From: Acidaminococcus fermentans DSM 20731
Lineage (GTDB): Bacteria; Bacillota; Negativicutes; Acidaminococcales; Acidaminococcaceae
Length of the DNA: 64,000 nucleotides
Reading direction: 5' to 3'
Assembly (NCBI RefSeq): GCF_000025305.1
Contig: NC_013740.1
Span: forward strand, 558,001 to 622,000
Shown: positions 1 through 43,780 of the stretch, piece by piece
Layout of the letters: every line of letters begins with the position of its first letter
How positions within the stretch are numbered: the stretch's first letter is position 1
Position numbers and translations under genes: made by a program
Notes under the pieces: model-generated
The model's database searches: none
Told to the model about the DNA's origin: nothing
The model's input: the letters and a program-made list of their open reading frames with translations, nothing else

Positions 1-1
1 C

Positions 2-100
2 AAAGTGGCCCGGACCATCGCGGATCTGGCCGGCAGCCGGGAAATCACACCCCTCCATCTGGGGGAAGCCATCCAGCTGCGGACCAGTATCCAGGGATAG
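2..100 (+). CDS. YifB/ComM-family AAA+ ATPase, C-terminal end only
   Basis: The last 32 codons of a gene that begins before the window, ending at TAG 98-100. The residues KVARTIADLAGS followed by ITPLHLGEAIQLR match the helical C-terminus of magnesium-chelatase-like ATPases of the YifB/ComM family, which help DNA branch migration during natural transformation. Only the tail is visible, so the ATPase motifs cannot be checked. The pilus gene that follows starts 10 nt later. A competence-type ATPase next to type IV pilus genes would fit DNA uptake, but that is inference. Confidence 0.7.
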   Translation, partial: KVARTIADLAGSREITPLHLGEAIQLRTSIQG

Positions 101-110
101 AAGGGAGAAG

Positions 111-2429
111 ATGGCAATGACAGAATATATGATATCATACCTCCCCGGAATGTTCTGGGGCATCGTGGGCTGCTGCCTGGGCAGCTTCCTGGATTTGTGG
201 GCCCAGCGGATCCGGCGGGAGGAATCCATTTTTCGTCCCCGTTCCCACTGTGACAGCTGCGGTGCGGTGCTGGGTCCTCTGGAACTGATCCCCCTGGTGA
301 GCTGGCTGGCCCAGAAGGGACGCTGCCGTCACTGCGGAGCGGAACTGTCCGGTTCCCTGTTCTGGCGGGAGGCTGCCTGCGGGGCCCTTTTTGTCCTGGT
401 GGCCCGGATGCCCGGCTCTCCGGCGGTACTGGCCGTACGGCTGCTCTGCCTGTCCCTGATGCTGGTGGTTTCCTGGCTGGACATGGACGAACTCCAGCTG
501 TATGAAGATTTTTTCCCTCCTCTGGGACTGCTGTTCCTGATCCTCCATGGACTGACGGATGGGGATTTCCTGGGGCCGGTGGCAGGTGCGGCCATCCTGT
601 GGGCGCTGCTGGCCCTGATCCACTGGCAGGTCCCTGAGGGCATGGGAGCGGGAGATCCCAAACTGGCTGCGGTGATGGGCCTGTGGCTGGGACCGGTCCT
701 GGGACTCCGGAGCTTTTTCCTGGCCATGGGCATGGCCTTCCTGTCCGTGGCTTTCCTGGGGTTCAAGACCCACAGCCGGTGGCAGGAACACATGGCCATG
801 CAGGTCCCCCTGGCTCCTTTTTTCTTTGGAGCGGGACTGTTGCTGCGGAGCCGGGCTCTCCTGGGCCCCGTGGATACAGGCGGGATGCCGGAACTGTTCT
901 GCTTCCTGGGAATCCTGGAACTGGACCGGACAAAGGGCCGGTACTGGCTGTCCAGGGCCGGGGAGTGGATCAGACGGCATCTGGCTCCCTGGCCCGGGCA
1001 TCTGCTGGCCGTCCAGGCCGGCGCCAGGACGGTGACCCTGGTCCAGGTACAAAGGAAGAAAGGCGGCTGGGAAGTGGAGCGGTTCCTGGAACTGGCCTGG
1101 CCGGAACGGATCCGCCGGGCTTTTTCCCGGGACCAGGGAGAAGAAGTGGCCCTGTGGCTCCAGGAGGTCTGTGCCAAACGGGGGCTGACCGCTTCCTCCG
1201 TGCTGTGGACCCTGAGCCCTGACCTGATGGAATTCCGGAACCTGCTCCTGCCCGGTTTGTCCCGGAAAGAACAGGCGGAGGCGGCATCCTGGGAAATCCT
1301 CCAGCAAATCGAATATCCTCCCGGGACCTTTGCCCTGGGGGTAGAAGCCGGACCGGAAACGGGAGAAGATATCCTGGCTGCCGCCGTCCCCCTGGCTCTT
1401 CTGGAAACTGGAGAAACCATTGCCCGGCAAATGGACTGGGAACTGCTCCGCCAGGAAGCAGCGCCGGCAGCCTGGGGACGCTGGATGGAGCAGGAACCTG
1501 CTGCTTTTCTCCTGGTCCGGGACCTGGACCGGATCCAGGGCGCCTGGTATGGATACGGCCGGCTGCTGGCCCTGCGGAATCTTCCCCTGGCCGATGGGGA
1601 AGAGGCAATGCCGGAAGAAACAGCCGGGCTCCTGTGGGACAAACTGCCGGCCGGAATCCGGGAACGGTTCCAGACAGGGCCCACCGGCTTGTATCTGGCA
1701 GGGGGCACGGAAGAGGAACAGCAGGCATGGAAGGAATTCTTCCAGCAGCAGTGGGACTGTCCGGTCCGGCTCCTGGAGGGAAAGGCCCAGTTCCAATGGG
1801 CGCCTTATTACACGGAAAAGCAGCCTTCCGGGCTGACCTCCGGCCTTTGCGGGGCCTTGGGAGCCGTACTGTCCGAAGGCAGGCCCAGTGCATTCTGCTT
1901 TGCTTCCGGCGGGGAAAGGGGACGGTGGCTGTCCGGCATCTCCTGGCTGGATCTGGGGAAGAAAATGGCGGCAGGTACGCTGGCACTCCTTTTGTGGGGC
2001 CTGGGGGCCCGGTTTCTGTGCCTGCGGGAAGAAACCCGCTGCCGGGAACATCTCCGGCAGGCGGCTGGTTGGGAAAGCCGCTGGACGGAGCAGCAGGAGA
2101 GGCGGAAGCTCCTGGTCCGGCAGGAAAAGGAAACCAGGGAACGGATGAAGCAGCAGGTTTCCTGGGGAAGATTCCTGACACTGCTGGGGAACCAGGTTCC
2201 CTCCGACTGCTGTCTGACCCGGGTGGAGCAGCAGAAAGAAGGGCGGACCCTGGTCCTGGAAGGCCGGAGCCTGAAACGGGACGGAGCGCTGGCCCTGGTC
2301 AGCCGTCTTCGGAAGCAGCCGGAACTGGCGCAGGTGAAGCTGGAACGGATGGAACAGGAAGAACGGGAATCGGATCTTACAGGCTTTTCCCTGCGGATCC
2401 AGCTGAAAGGGGAGAAGGCCCATGGCTGA
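111..2429 (+). CDS. Prepilin peptidase - PilM-like - PilN-like triple fusion
   Basis: A 772-residue open frame that reads as three pilus assembly proteins in one chain. Residues 1-275 are a type IV prepilin leader peptidase/methylase: GSFL at 24-27, zinc cysteines C47, C50, C72 and C75, catalytic-type aspartates near D124/D126 and in GMGAGD (D182), and multiple membrane segments. Residues about 297-600 resemble a degenerate PilM (actin-like fold; late GG motif at 531-532) without a clear DIG ATP motif. Residues 617-637 are one membrane helix, 638-683 a charged coiled coil, and 684-772 a PilN-like periplasmic domain. In other bacteria these are separate genes (pilD, pilM, pilN); the summed lengths fit 772. 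The PilO-like gene overlaps the end by 8 nt. Peptidase assignment is firm; PilM/PilN rests on order, topology and weak similarity. Confidence 0.82.
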   Translation: MAMTEYMISYLPGMFWGIVGCCLGSFLDLWAQRIRREESIFRPRSHCDSCGAVLGPLELIPLVSWLAQKGRCRHCGAELSGSLFWREAACGALFVLVARMPGSPAVLAVRLLCLSLMLVVSWLDMDELQLYEDFFPPLGLLFLILHGLTDGDFLGPVAGAAILWALLALIHWQVPEGMGAGDPKLAAVMGLWLGPVLGLRSFFLAMGMAFLSVAFLGFKTHSRWQEHMAMQVPLAPFFFGAGLLLRSRALLGPVDTGGMPELFCFLGILELDRTKGRYWLSRAGEWIRRHLAPWPGHLLAVQAGARTVTLVQVQRKKGGWEVERFLELAWPERIRRAFSRDQGEEVALWLQEVCAKRGLTASSVLWTLSPDLMEFRNLLLPGLSRKEQAEAASWEILQQIEYPPGTFALGVEAGPETGEDILAAAVPLALLETGETIARQMDWELLRQEAAPAAWGRWMEQEPAAFLLVRDLDRIQGAWYGYGRLLALRNLPLADGEEAMPEETAGLLWDKLPAGIRERFQTGPTGLYLAGGTEEEQQAWKEFFQQQWDCPVRLLEGKAQFQWAPYYTEKQPSGLTSGLCGALGAVLSEGRPSAFCFASGGERGRWLSGISWLDLGKKMAAGTLALLLWGLGARFLCLREETRCREHLRQAAGWESRWTEQQERRKLLVRQEKETRERMKQQVSWGRFLTLLGNQVPSDCCLTRVEQQKEGRTLVLEGRSLKRDGALALVSRLRKQPELAQVKLERMEQEERESDLTGFSLRIQLKGEKAHG

Positions 2430-2985
2430 GAAAAAGAGACGAGTCCTTCCCCTGGGGGGAAGGAACCTCCGGGGCCTGGGGCTTTGCCTGGGGCTCTTTC
2501 TGTTGTGGATCTGTCTGCTGCTTCCCCTGGGACGGGACATCCTGGATCGGAACCGGCAGAACGGAGCAATGAGGAACCGGATCCGGCAGCTGGCCGTCTT
2601 TGCCGGCCAGTGGGATCCGGAAAAGTCTGGGGAAGAAAAAAGACGGCTGGACCGGTATGCCAGGGAAAACAGACAGCAGAGCCCGGAAGCCTGGGCAGGG
2701 TGTCTGGAGACGGAAGCCGCCCGGTCCGGGCTCCAGGTACTCCGGCTGGCACCTCTGAACCCGGAGGGCAAAGCGCTGCCTTCCGGGCTGGAAGCTGATC
2801 TGGAAGGATCCTTCCCTCAGCTCTTCACCTTTTTCCGCCAGTGGGAAACCCGGTATCCCGGTGTCTATACCAGAGATGGGCGTCTGGAAACCCGGGAAAG
2901 AGGAAAAAAAGTCCTGTTTCACGGAAAATTTATAACAGGTCCTGTAAAAAGTTCCAAATCAAGAGAAATACCCAGTTCTTATTGA
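2422..2985 (+). CDS. PilO-like type IV pilus inner-membrane protein
   Basis: 187 residues. A basic N-terminus is followed by one hydrophobic helix (about residues 18-36), then a charged helical stretch and a small C-terminal domain containing a FPQLFTFFRQWE segment typical of PilO, where the pseudo-pilus alignment proteins pair as ferredoxin-like folds. PilO and PilN normally form a heterodimer that links the cytoplasmic PilM to the secretin through PilP; here PilN-like sequence is the end of the preceding fusion gene. The start ATG overlaps that gene's stop by 8 nt, so translation is probably coupled. No pilin gene follows; the next gene has its own promoter. Confidence 0.7.
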   Translation: MAEKKRRVLPLGGRNLRGLGLCLGLFLLWICLLLPLGRDILDRNRQNGAMRNRIRQLAVFAGQWDPEKSGEEKRRLDRYARENRQQSPEAWAGCLETEAARSGLQVLRLAPLNPEGKALPSGLEADLEGSFPQLFTFFRQWETRYPGVYTRDGRLETRERGKKVLFHGKFITGPVKSSKSREIPSSY

Positions 2986-3010
2986 CCGATTTCGTTAATA
3001 ATGAGATAAT
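2982..3010 (+). promoter_or_regulatory. Sigma-70 promoter for the aminotransferase gene
   Basis: TTGACC (2982-2987), 17-nt spacer, GATAAT (3005-3010). It overlaps the stop of the PilO-like gene and lies about 67 nt before the aminotransferase ATG. Confidence 0.65.
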
Positions 3011-3076
3011 AGAATGTACAACGATTATTTTCGTTTTTAAAACGTTCGCTTTTTACTGAGGGGAGGACCTATCATT

Positions 3077-40104: not shown

Positions 40105-40773
40105 ATGAGTCAGGAACTGGAACAGCGCCGGCTGCTGGCCGGGCTTTGGAAGGACCAGCGGCAGCGGGTGGACCGGACCCTGCGTCTGTGGGAAAGTGCT
40201 GTGCTGCTGCCCCTGCGGTGGACAAGGCACGGGTGGGAAATCCTCTTTGAGGTCCGGGCCGCCACCATGAAATGGCAGCCGGGAGACATCTGTTTTCCCG
40301 GAGGCCACCGGGAGGAAACGGATGCCAGTTTCTGCGCCACAGCCCTTCGGGAAACCCGGGAAGAACTGGGAATCCCGGAGGATAAGATCCAGGTGTTGGG
40401 GCCCCTGGACTATTTTTACGGCTATTCCGGGCCCCTGATCTATCCCTTTGCCGGGATCCTTCCGGCCCAGCCCCCTCTCCGTCTGGATCATACGGAAGTG
40501 GAGGAGGTGTTCGCCGTCCCCCTGAAGGATCTGCTGGCCATCCATCCGGTGGTGGGAAAACTTTCTCTCGCCAGCCGGCAGGAGCCGGGATTCCCGGCCC
40601 AGTGGGCCTATGGCTTCCAGGACGGATGGAATATCCGGGGCGGTTATGAAGTGTTCTTCTATCCCTGGAAAAAGCGGATCATCTGGGGCATTACTGCCCG
40701 GATCCTCCACCAGTTCCTGGAACGGGTGCGTCAGGGAGGACTGCTGCCGGAAGAGGCTGACCGGGACCGCTGA
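40105..40773 (+). CDS. NUDIX hydrolase (CoA pyrophosphatase-like)
   Basis: 222 residues. The NUDIX box runs from FPGGHREETDASFCATAL into RETREELGI, with D in place of the first acidic E as in the NudL/CoA pyrophosphatase group, and the upstream LPLRWTRHGWEILFEVR segment fits that group. It would cleave CoA or a similar nucleoside diphosphate derivative. Its last 83 bp overlap the 3' end of the convergent secretin gene, so its C-terminal 27 residues are encoded opposite secretin codons. Confidence 0.85.
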   Translation: MSQELEQRRLLAGLWKDQRQRVDRTLRLWESAVLLPLRWTRHGWEILFEVRAATMKWQPGDICFPGGHREETDASFCATALRETREELGIPEDKIQVLGPLDYFYGYSGPLIYPFAGILPAQPPLRLDHTEVEEVFAVPLKDLLAIHPVVGKLSLASRQEPGFPAQWAYGFQDGWNIRGGYEVFFYPWKKRIIWGITARILHQFLERVRQGGLLPEEADRDR

Positions 40774-41908
40774 GATACGGGGTCAGGAACATGCAGACTT
40801 CCGTCCGGTTCCGGCTCCTGCTGCGGAATTTGAACAGTTCTCCCAGAAGAGGGAGCTTGGACAGCAGGGGAATGGCTTCCATCCGGTGTTGTTCCTGTTC
40901 GCTGATCAGGCCCCCGATTACCAGGGTCTCCTTTTCCCGGAGCCGTACATGGGTATCTGCCGTCCGGCTGGTGATCCGGTAATTCTTCAGTTCGGCGATC
41001 AGGGTAGGGGTGCTCACTTCCGTATGGACCTTTGCGGTGATCAGGCCGTCCTGGCTCAGATAGGGAGTGTAGGAGAGCCGGATGCCGGCATCCACATATT
41101 CCGTGGTGCTGGTGGTGGTGCTGTTGGTGACCTTTTCCGTGACCACCGGGATATGGTCCCCGATGAAGATGCTGGCTTCCCGCCCCGGCAGAGTGATGAT
41201 CCGGGGAGTGGCCAGGACCTTGGCTTTGCCTTCCTGACAGAGAGCACTGAGCCGGGCCTGGAAACTGGCACCGTAGCTGTGGCCCAGATGGAGCCGCCCG
41301 CCAAAGCCCCCTTCGCCCTTTTTCCGGCCTTCCGGAAGAGCGCTCCAGTCCCACTGGAGTCCCAGTTCCCGGGAGGCACTTTCCCCCAGGGACAGGATCC
41401 GGGCTTCCAGGGTGATCTGCCGGGTGGGCCGGTCCAGGGCCTTCAGGGCTTCCTTCAGCCGGTTTTCTTCTCCCGGGGAGCCATGGAAAAGAATGGCATT
41501 GGTGTCCCGGGACCAGGCCAGGGGGGTGGAAAACAGGGGCTTCAGGGTTTCCGCCGTTTCCCGGGCGGAAATATATTCCAGGGGATGGACGGTGAGCCGG
41601 CCATACAAGGCATCCATCCGTTCCGGAGAGGCCACCCACAGGGTGTTCCCTTCTTCCCGGAAGCACAGGCCCTGACTGCGGGTGACCATTTCCAGTGCCT
41701 GGGGAAAAGGCAGCTGTTGGATTTCCAGGGACAGGGTCCCGGGAATCTGGGAATCCAGCACCAGATTCCGTCCGGCCATTTGGGCCATGCTCTGGAGCAC
41801 GTCCCGGACCGGCGCTTCCTGTACGGAAAGAGAAAGGGGTTCAGCAGCCAGGACCCAGCGGACCGGGGTAAAAATACAGAAAATACAGAACAGGAGCAGA
41901 AGCTTCAT
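40691..41908 (-). CDS. Type IV pilus/type II secretion secretin (PilQ/GspD-like)
   Basis: 405 residues, short for a secretin. Signal peptide MKLLLLFCIFCIFTPV..AA, then a STN-type domain (PVRDVLQSMAQMAGRN), one N1/NolW-like domain (VHPLEYISARETAETLKPLF) and the secretin channel (LATPRIITLPGREASIFIGDHIPV, then ETLVIGGLISEQ). It should form the outer-membrane gate for a pilus. Start ATG 41908 shares its first base with the PilP-like gene's TAA stop; GGGAGGTG is 5 nt upstream, and a GTG six bases further out is less likely. No AMIN domains or lipoprotein partner are seen. Its end overlaps the NUDIX gene. Confidence 0.85.
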   Translation of the reverse strand: MKLLLLFCIFCIFTPVRWVLAAEPLSLSVQEAPVRDVLQSMAQMAGRNLVLDSQIPGTLSLEIQQLPFPQALEMVTRSQGLCFREEGNTLWVASPERMDALYGRLTVHPLEYISARETAETLKPLFSTPLAWSRDTNAILFHGSPGEENRLKEALKALDRPTRQITLEARILSLGESASRELGLQWDWSALPEGRKKGEGGFGGRLHLGHSYGASFQARLSALCQEGKAKVLATPRIITLPGREASIFIGDHIPVVTEKVTNSTTTSTTEYVDAGIRLSYTPYLSQDGLITAKVHTEVSTPTLIAELKNYRITSRTADTHVRLREKETLVIGGLISEQEQHRMEAIPLLSKLPLLGELFKFRSRSRNRTEVCMFLTPYLSGPGQPLPAAVLPDAPVPGTGGGSGQ

Positions 41909-42417
41909 TACCACACCTCCCCAATGGCCAGGGTGGCCTCTTCGCAGACCAGGGCGGAGGGCAGCACCTGCCGGATGATGCCCTGGGAGGGAAGCGGGTC
42001 CCCCGGACCCAGGAGCCGGGTGCCTTCCGGCAGGGCTACCAGCGCCTTGCGTTTCCCCCGGTGTTCCAGGATTCCCAGAAGACGGCGGCAGGGAGCCGGC
42101 GCCGGTGGAGCAGCCGGAGCAGGAGCGGCCGGGACGGGAGCCTTTGCCGGGACTACCGGCGGTTTGGAAGAAGCCGGGAGGCTGGGATGATCCAGGGGGC
42201 GGAAGGGGTCCCGCCGGGGAAGTCTGCCGGGTTTGCGGATTTCCGGTTCCGATGTCCGGCCTTCCGCTTCTGCCAGAGCGGGCAGGGAGGGAAAATCCGG
42301 AAGAGCGGGGGAAGGGAACAGGAACAGCAGGGATCCGGTGCCCAGAACGGCCAGACCAAGGGAAAGGGCCATCCTGGAGGAAAGAGAGACGGTGGGCAAA
42401 ATCTTGTGGGAAAACAT
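41908..42417 (-). CDS. PilP/GspC-like secretin linker protein
   Basis: 169 residues. One N-terminal membrane helix (about 16-36), a long proline/alanine-rich linker with RRDPFRPL (the PilP-type DPF motif) and a C-terminal beta domain (LLGILEHRGKRKALVALP, then LLGPGDPLPSQGIIRQV) like the HR domain of PilP/GspC. Such proteins connect PilN/PilO to the secretin in the periplasm; the partners are in the operon at 0.1-3 kb. AAGGAGG precedes ATG. It overlaps the secretin start by 1 nt. Similarity is by architecture, so moderate certainty. Confidence 0.72.
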   Translation of the reverse strand: MFSHKILPTVSLSSRMALSLGLAVLGTGSLLFLFPSPALPDFPSLPALAEAEGRTSEPEIRKPGRLPRRDPFRPLDHPSLPASSKPPVVPAKAPVPAAPAPAAPPAPAPCRRLLGILEHRGKRKALVALPEGTRLLGPGDPLPSQGIIRQVLPSALVCEEATLAIGEVW

Positions 42418-42476: not shown

Positions 42477-42541
42477 TACCCCAACCGTCATTACAGGGAA
42501 AAAAAGGGATATGAATGGACAGTCAGAAAGGAGTCGATGCT

Positions 42542-43780
42542 ATGTTTGGGCATTCCTGCGGGATAGAAAGGGACGTCGGACCATTCCGGTGGAAGGATCC
42601 TCTGGAAAGAAGGGTAGGGAGCGGTCCTGTGTCCCCGGCGGTGCTCCTGGCCCGGGAAGTGGTGGAACAGGCTTTGGAACAGGGGGCCAGTGACATCCAT
42701 CTGGAACCGGAAACGGACGGGATGGTGATCCGCTGCCGGCTGGACGGCGTGCTTCAGAAGCTCCGGACCGTGCCGAAAAATCTCCAGGACCCGCTGGTTT
42801 CCCGGTTTAAGATTCTTTCCGGCATGGACATCGGAGAAAAACGGCTGCCCCAGGACGGACGGTTCCAGGAAGCCTGGCAGGACCGGCAGGTGGACGTGAG
42901 GGTTTCCTCCCTGCCCACCCTCCATGGGGAAAGTCTGGTGCTGCGGCTCCTGGACCAGGAGAACGTCGCCCTGGATCTCTCCCGGCTGGGATTCAGCCAC
43001 CACAACCGGGCACGGCTGGACCGGTGTCTGCAGAAACCCCATGGATTGTTCCTGGTCACCGGTCCCACCGGCAGCGGAAAATCCACTACCCTGTACGGGG
43101 CTCTGGCCGCCCTGGACCGGGACCATCAGAAAATCATTACCGTGGAAGACCCGGTGGAGTATCAGCTGCCGGGAATCCGCCAGGTGGCCGTCCGGCCCAA
43201 AATCGGCCTGACCTTCAGCCGCTGTCTCCGAAGTATCCTGCGCCAGGATCCGGACTGCATCCTGATTGGGGAAATCCGGGACGGGGAAACCGCCGCCATG
43301 GCCATCCAGGCGGCGCTTACCGGGCACCGGGTCCTGAGCACCCTTCACACCAACACCGCAGCCGGAGCGGTGAACCGGATCCTGGACATGGGGGTGGAAC
43401 CCTATCTGGCAGCCTCTGCCCTCCAGGGGGTGGCCGGGCAGCTTCTGGTCCGAAGACTGTGCAGCCACTGCAAAAAGGCGTATACTGTACAGGAGCAGGC
43501 TTGGGAATGGAGCTATCTGGGGCTGCAGGAACCCCGGACGCTGTACAGGGCCCAGGGCTGTCCCCGCTGCCGGCATACCGGGTATGGGGGACGGCTGCCC
43601 CTGCAGGAGGTACTGCTTGTGGAAGGATCCGTCCGCCAGGGAATCCTGGACGGGTGGCATGAAGAAGCACTGGAAAAAGAAGCCCGGAAGACCGGATTCC
43701 GGTCCCTCCGGGATGACGGACGGGAGAAGGTGCTGGCCGGAGAGACCAGTGCGGAGGAACTGCTCCGGGTATTGGGATAA
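42542..43780 (+). CDS. Type IV pilus assembly ATPase (PilB/GspE-like)
   Basis: 412 residues from ATG 42542, chosen because AAAGGAG (42527-42533) sits 8 nt upstream; ATG 42515 in frame lies before that site. It lacks the N-terminal MshEN domain of full-length PilB. The core is complete: SDIHLEP, GPTGSGKST Walker A (174-182), VEDPVEY Asp box, LRQDPDCILIGEIRD Walker B and STLHTN His box, then a tetracysteine zinc site (CSHCKKAYT and CPRCRHTGYGG). It powers pilus extension or pseudopilus assembly at the inner membrane. Divergent from PilP-secretin. Confidence 0.88.
   Translation: MFGHSCGIERDVGPFRWKDPLERRVGSGPVSPAVLLAREVVEQALEQGASDIHLEPETDGMVIRCRLDGVLQKLRTVPKNLQDPLVSRFKILSGMDIGEKRLPQDGRFQEAWQDRQVDVRVSSLPTLHGESLVLRLLDQENVALDLSRLGFSHHNRARLDRCLQKPHGLFLVTGPTGSGKSTTLYGALAALDRDHQKIITVEDPVEYQLPGIRQVAVRPKIGLTFSRCLRSILRQDPDCILIGEIRDGETAAMAIQAALTGHRVLSTLHTNTAAGAVNRILDMGVEPYLAASALQGVAGQLLVRRLCSHCKKAYTVQEQAWEWSYLGLQEPRTLYRAQGCPRCRHTGYGGRLPLQEVLLVEGSVRQGILDGWHEEALEKEARKTGFRSLRDDGREKVLAGETSAEELLRVLG

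Follow-up and report, generated by a model that had tools for sequence, protein, structure and literature searches.

An in-frame fusion of a prepilin peptidase to a PilM-PilN-like platform subunit in a subclade of Acidaminococcus

Results

The fusion gene and its neighbours

The window that we analysed (64,000 nucleotides of the Acidaminococcus fermentans DSM 20731 genome, itself one contig of 2,329,769 bases) opens with the 3' end of comM, which stops 10 bases upstream of a single intact reading frame of 772 codons (Table 1). This frame starts with ATG, has no internal stop and encodes a protein of 772 amino acids that joins, in this order, a prepilin peptidase, a PilM-like domain, a membrane helix and a PilN-like domain. 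Three Pfam families, A24_N_bact, Peptidase_A24 and PilN (the last at residues 688-765), match the protein above their curated cut-offs. The gene that follows shares 8 bases with the 3' end of the fusion gene and is PilO-like, as recognized by hhalign comparison of seven members of the genus with the gene after pilN in a relative, G031, that has separate pilM and pilN genes (probability 95.9, E=6e-9). The uninterrupted frame, its domain order and the overlapping PilO-like gene had all been proposed in an initial annotation made from the DNA letters, and Pfam, hhalign and the comparison of five genomes described below bear them out.

Table 1. Position in the window, strand and supporting evidence for the fusion gene, its parts, its neighbours and the other pilus genes
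Feature	Position	Strand	Evidence
comM 3' end (507 aa; competence-associated helicase)	1..100	+	L006 6578-8101; synteny in 9/9 genus genomes
Fusion gene, prepilin peptidase - PilM-like - TM helix - PilN-like	111..2429	+	Open frame, Pfam, 4 other Acidaminococcus genomes
A24_N (methyltransferase/zinc) domain, residues 18-98, Cys47/50/72/75	162..404	+	PF06750 E=1.8e-24
Peptidase_A24 domain, residues 111-209, Asp124 and Asp182 (GMGAGD)	441..737	+	PF01478 E=1.1e-8
Linker, residues 251-292	861..986	+	Fusion alignment, hydropathy, low-confidence model
PilM-like cytoplasmic domain, residues 293-600	987..1910	+	hhalign to canonical PilM; PDB 2ych
Membrane helix, about residues 617-637	1959..2021	+	Alignment with the N-terminal helix of relatives' PilN
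PilN-like periplasmic domain, residues 638-772	2022..2426	+	PF05137 E=1.4e-7; family profile to PDB 4bhq E=1.3e-4
PilO-like (GspM-like) gene, 187 aa	2422..2985	+	hhalign; weak T2SSM match
Secretin (PilQ/HofQ/GspD type)	40691..41914	-	PF00263 1.5e-41; TIGR02515 1.3e-61, below its cut-off
PilP/GspC-like candidate	41908..42417	-	Adjoins secretin, RDPF...GD pattern only; no Pfam match
PilB/GspE assembly ATPase without MshEN N-terminal domain	42515..43780	+	PF00437 2.2e-129

Domains of the fusion protein

The N-terminal part bears the type IV prepilin peptidase (A24) signature, that is, four zinc cysteines and two catalytic aspartates (D...GxGD, with GMGAGD at residues 177-182). Cys47, Cys50, Cys72, Cys75, Asp124 and Asp182 are invariant in an alignment of 12 fused and separate peptidases, and to judge by these residues this part is a complete prepilin peptidase with its catalytic residues intact, as first annotated. 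Candidate substrates for its cleavage and methylation activities exist in the genome as open reading frames with pilin-like N-termini.

The PilM-like part of the single A. fermentans sequence gave no match to Pfam PilM_2, which matches 7 of 13 family members at E<=1 (best value 2.8e-4); the region is too divergent for Pfam sensitivity on single sequences. A family profile of the same region built from 13 species does match the PilM structure 2ych (E=1.4e-21, positions 4-315 of 332), as well as the PilM structures 3jc8, 5eou and 5eox, and its hhalign comparison with the canonical PilM of relatives reaches a probability of 100 (E=9e-40, 314 columns). The region thus matches PilM profiles and structures, as had been supposed, and so does its C-terminal continuation with respect to PilN, since the PilN family scores above its cut-off directly after a single transmembrane helix that aligns with that of the relatives' PilN. 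The nucleotide-binding motifs of PilM (IDIG..., LDIG...) are absent from the PilM part of the fusion: A. fermentans has VQAG and LVRDLD where separate PilM proteins have VDIG and LDIG. The NLLP tail motif of PilN is likewise absent from the fusions and is present in the separate PilN of three relatives (G010, G028, G031). Both kinds of motif have decayed in the fused lineages, as would be expected once the contact between the two proteins had become covalent. The initial suggestion that the fusion fixes the PilM-PilN contact applies to an older and already known PilM-PilN step.

The junction between peptidase and PilM poses a problem of topology, the chief obstacle to the platform reading discussed below. 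Known prepilin peptidases have eight transmembrane segments and four cytoplasmic loops, and act alone (PMC10191384). Eight segments should leave the C-terminus of the peptidase in the periplasm, whereas PilM has to be cytoplasmic. In the hydropathy profile, eight hydrophobic segments are followed by a ninth, shorter one within the linker. All five known fusions carry this hydrophobic stretch of 10-13 residues (about 259-270) downstream of the final peptidase helix, and L262, L266 and G267 are invariant in it. A strongly basic segment separates this stretch from PilM in four of the five; in the A. fermentans linker a basic helix precedes PWP (residues 293-295). The stretch might cross the membrane as a short ninth segment or form a re-entrant loop, though 10-13 hydrophobic residues are few. 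AlphaFold models had a pLDDT of 43 for the whole protein (from four sequences) and of 64 for residues 1-300, where the peptidase core is fair and the linker unclear; Foldseek searches with the latter model returned nothing informative.

Distribution and selection

Of nine genomes of the gut bacterium Acidaminococcus, five (G000, G001, G003, G004 and G008) have the three-part stopless frame, always in the syntenic order comM, fusion, pilO, aminotransferase. In each of the five homologues a single frame scores above the Pfam cut-offs for A24_N, A24 and PilN, and sequence identities among them go down to 29%. The wider search of the Negativicutes for this domain order that the initial annotation had called for, done with a fusion profile, found no fusion in the remaining 375 of 380 genomes, nor was any stopless peptidase fusion detected outside the clade among 398 genomes across the phylum at a strict threshold (E<=1e-45). 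Plasmids yielded partial matches to the peptidase part only. Scanning genome contigs with a single fusion protein gave no match; the same scan with the fusion alignment recovered A. massiliensis, A. fermentans WCA-389-WT-5B and A. provencensis.

Because independent assemblies of five species carry the fusion, its junctions are not read errors, and a sequencing or assembly artefact is ruled out. Values of dN/dS between G000 and G004 (peptidase 0.40, PilM 0.33, PilN 0.31) imply purifying selection on every domain, which rules out a pseudogene or a chance frame. In A. massiliensis (G003), the comM frame upstream of the fusion measures 359-384 amino acids, against 507 elsewhere (L038 11114-12193), and is possibly broken or frameshifted.

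Origin by stepwise merging

At the same locus, the four unfused Acidaminococcus (G002, G005, G006, G007) have a peptidase gene of 248-267 amino acids followed by a pilMN gene of 520-575 amino acids with its own Shine-Dalgarno sequence and ATG. The linkers of the fused genes contain no convincing internal start ahead of PilM, so PilMN should be produced there within the fusion. More distant family members (G013, G016, G057) also combine a peptidase gene with pilMN, and others (G010, G028, G031) have separate pilD, pilM and pilN, with IDIG and LDIG intact in PilM and NLLP intact in PilN. In a tree of ComM plus the aminotransferase, fused and unfused Acidaminococcus fall on opposite sides of a branch with support 100/100, and a PilMN tree that includes unfused outgroups unites the fusions in one clade (support 92/93). 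This single fused clade, together with relatives of the pilD/pilMN and pilD/pilM/pilN types, points to a stepwise merger of neighbouring genes. In the simplest history, pilM and pilN merged first and pilD joined pilMN a single time later, in the common ancestor of one subclade of Acidaminococcus.

In several relatives a single in-frame stop lies between peptidase and PilMN: TAA in the unfused Acidaminococcus G007 (L043, about 3010-3030) and TAG in G014, G015, G017 and G018. G465 and G733, from other parts of the phylum, likewise have a lone in-frame stop between the peptidase and PilM or PilMN. The fusion is thus few mutations away in such lineages, where stop-codon readthrough might even yield some fusion product. 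The four genomes with TAG are four species of one genus that have this single stop in common. The peptidase of G057 (L045 10622-11314) has kept the A24 domain and lost all four zinc cysteines, and in several further relatives the A24 frame is just ~156 amino acids long.

The rest of the pilus machine

The A. fermentans genome contains a type IVa pilus set (PilB, PilC, pilins, peptidase, PilM/N/O and secretin) with scattered genes: PilB, the secretin and the PilP-like candidate lie at 40.7-43.8 kb of the window, and PilC in an operon at 1.43 Mb, together with a ComGC-like pilin and four more open reading frames with pilin-like N-termini. The last pilin-like frame of this operon (L095 5475-6338) has a C-terminal part with weak similarity to ice-binding repeats (E=0.025). 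ComEC is present in every genome. Targeted searches, on which this inventory is based, found no separate pilM or pilN elsewhere in the A. fermentans genome, a finding that the initial annotation had named as one that would overturn its reading; the sole remaining PilM_2 match is a weak and partial one to a 345-amino-acid frame, as expected of MreB/FtsA-type proteins.

PilT is absent from all nine Acidaminococcus genomes, and the pilus lacks a dedicated retraction ATPase throughout the genus. Related genomes have PilT (G010, G013, G031, G057 and G061), including those of genera with fused PilMN. PilB frames are 413-458 amino acids long in every genome with fused PilMN that was examined, and 563-584 where pilM and pilN are separate, a sequence pattern which suggests that the loss of the PilM nucleotide site and that of the PilB N-terminal domain may be linked.

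No other A24 peptidase was found in G001, G003 and G008, so that the fused enzyme must process the pilins of these species, if their pilus works. A. fermentans has a second A24 protein, TadV-like and without A24_N (C1:1164363-1164998; L096 6364-6999), beside a TadG-like gene. This protein at 1.16 Mb presumably serves the complete-looking Tad pilus locus at 1.31 Mb (C1:1308494-1318000; L005).

Discussion

A proposed platform subunit with its own peptidase

We consider it about an even bet (probability roughly 0.5) that the gene encodes one uncut, GspL-like platform subunit with a built-in peptidase, and that this fusion arose by two mergers and works in a reduced DNA-uptake pilus. Its product would be a single membrane protein with the peptidase at the N-terminus of a PilM-helix-PilN platform subunit. 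The peptidase would cleave the leaders off prepilins on the cytoplasmic side of the membrane, the chain would re-enter the cytoplasm via the linker, the PilM part would dock PilB/PilC and the PilN part would pair with PilO. Trimming would then be located at the platform, with the peptidase in a fixed 1:1 ratio with PilN/PilO; the covalent linkage tethers the enzyme to the platform only if the chain stays uncleaved. The machine would be a reduced, PilT-less type IV pilus for DNA uptake, a role that appears the likelier one, given the adjacent comM, ComEC, the ComGC-like pilin operon and the related competence locus of Veillonella, which is transformable. A more specific version, which we hold only tentatively, would make the peptidase a permanent stoichiometric subunit of the platform, with cleavage coupled to PilC/PilB delivery and a new re-entry segment in the linker returning PilM to the cytoplasm.

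The strongest competitor, which we find possible and somewhat less probable than the reading just given, is that the link has no role: the stop between adjacent co-translated genes would have been lost harmlessly, and the peptidase would act on freely diffusing prepilins. That the genes of relatives are adjacent, often in the same frame and with one in-frame stop between them, fits such a neutral event well, as do its single origin and the fast evolution of the whole locus (dN of 0.29 between G000 and G004 vs 0.02 for comM, ~15x). Against it, every one of the five species sampled from the clade has kept the fusion despite their deep divergence, the linker retains its invariant residues and its hydrophobicity, and the topology should make a random joining of PilD to PilM costly.

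A different reading concerns the role only and is compatible with the others: the machine could be a T2SS-like pseudopilus for protein secretion and the fusion a GspO-GspL protein. The GspL architecture, the single assembly ATPase in the absence of PilT, the higher score of that ATPase with GspE than with PilB (517 vs 456 bits), the presence of a secretin and the weak T2SSM match of the next gene all agree with this. We regard it as unlikely, since PilM/N/O have a local origin in a type IV pilus cluster that includes PilT, the secretin scores best as PilQ, comM is adjacent and ComEC occurs in every genome, and there are related Negativicutes with a type IV pilus competence locus that undergo natural transformation (PMC5397411). 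Least probable of all is a polyprotein cut in the linker to release an ordinary peptidase alongside a PilMN subunit: the linker is indeed the least conserved part (40 codons, dN 0.53) and cutting would remove the topology problem, but the linker alignment shows no conserved cleavage motif and our literature search found no precedent among type IV pilus components.

If the chain does act as a platform subunit with its own peptidase, it bears on a question that is hard to address otherwise. Prepilin peptidases are thought to act alone, and any spatial coupling of processing to assembly is hard to test. Here, one clade offers a natural 1:1 lock, close relatives are unfused, and each step has living intermediates. 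The fusion suggests that trimming happens where the filament is built, and splitting it, or fusing the unfused genes, would test directly whether processing at the platform matters.

Comparison with known systems

GspL consists of an actin-like cytoplasmic domain, one transmembrane helix and a ferredoxin-like periplasmic domain, and has GspM as its partner in type II secretion systems, which lack PilT. The PilM-helix-PilN half of the fusion is built like GspL, PilO taking the place of GspM, an equivalence drawn in PMC4471445, and resembles this system in its three-part chain, its partner and the absence of PilT. It differs in its derivation from local pilM and pilN genes, in the lack of a match to the GspL family among the Pfam results for the fusion and its family members, and in the N-terminal peptidase, the equivalent of GspO. 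It represents a second, local route from separate PilM and PilN to a GspL-like subunit.

PilM-PilN fusions as such are known. Clostridioides difficile has PilMN (PMC6916266), and the PilMN complex has been regarded as a GspL orthologue (PMC4471445). As in Acidaminococcus, PilM and PilN form one polypeptide in C. difficile, with pilO in the locus of a Firmicutes type IV pilus; going by published descriptions, no peptidase is attached. The initial claim that no described machine is built in this way consequently fails for the PilM-PilN half and stands for the attachment of the peptidase: searches of open-access literature turned up no report of a peptidase-PilM or peptidase-platform fusion, nor of an Acidaminococcus prepilin peptidase.

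The competence locus of Veillonella, another member of the Negativicutes, likewise encodes a traffic ATPase, a PilC-like protein, pilins and a peptidase and is linked to transformation; it includes PilT and a separate peptidase, whereas in Acidaminococcus the genes are scattered, PilT is absent and one subclade has the fusion (PMC5397411). With the A24 enzymes PilD, GspO and ComC, the fusion shares the A24_N domain with four cysteines, the two catalytic aspartates and a multi-helix core. Those enzymes end after their last transmembrane helix, whereas the fusion continues from there into PilM-PilN, and it is this attachment of the peptidase alone, rather than the machine, that appears to be new.
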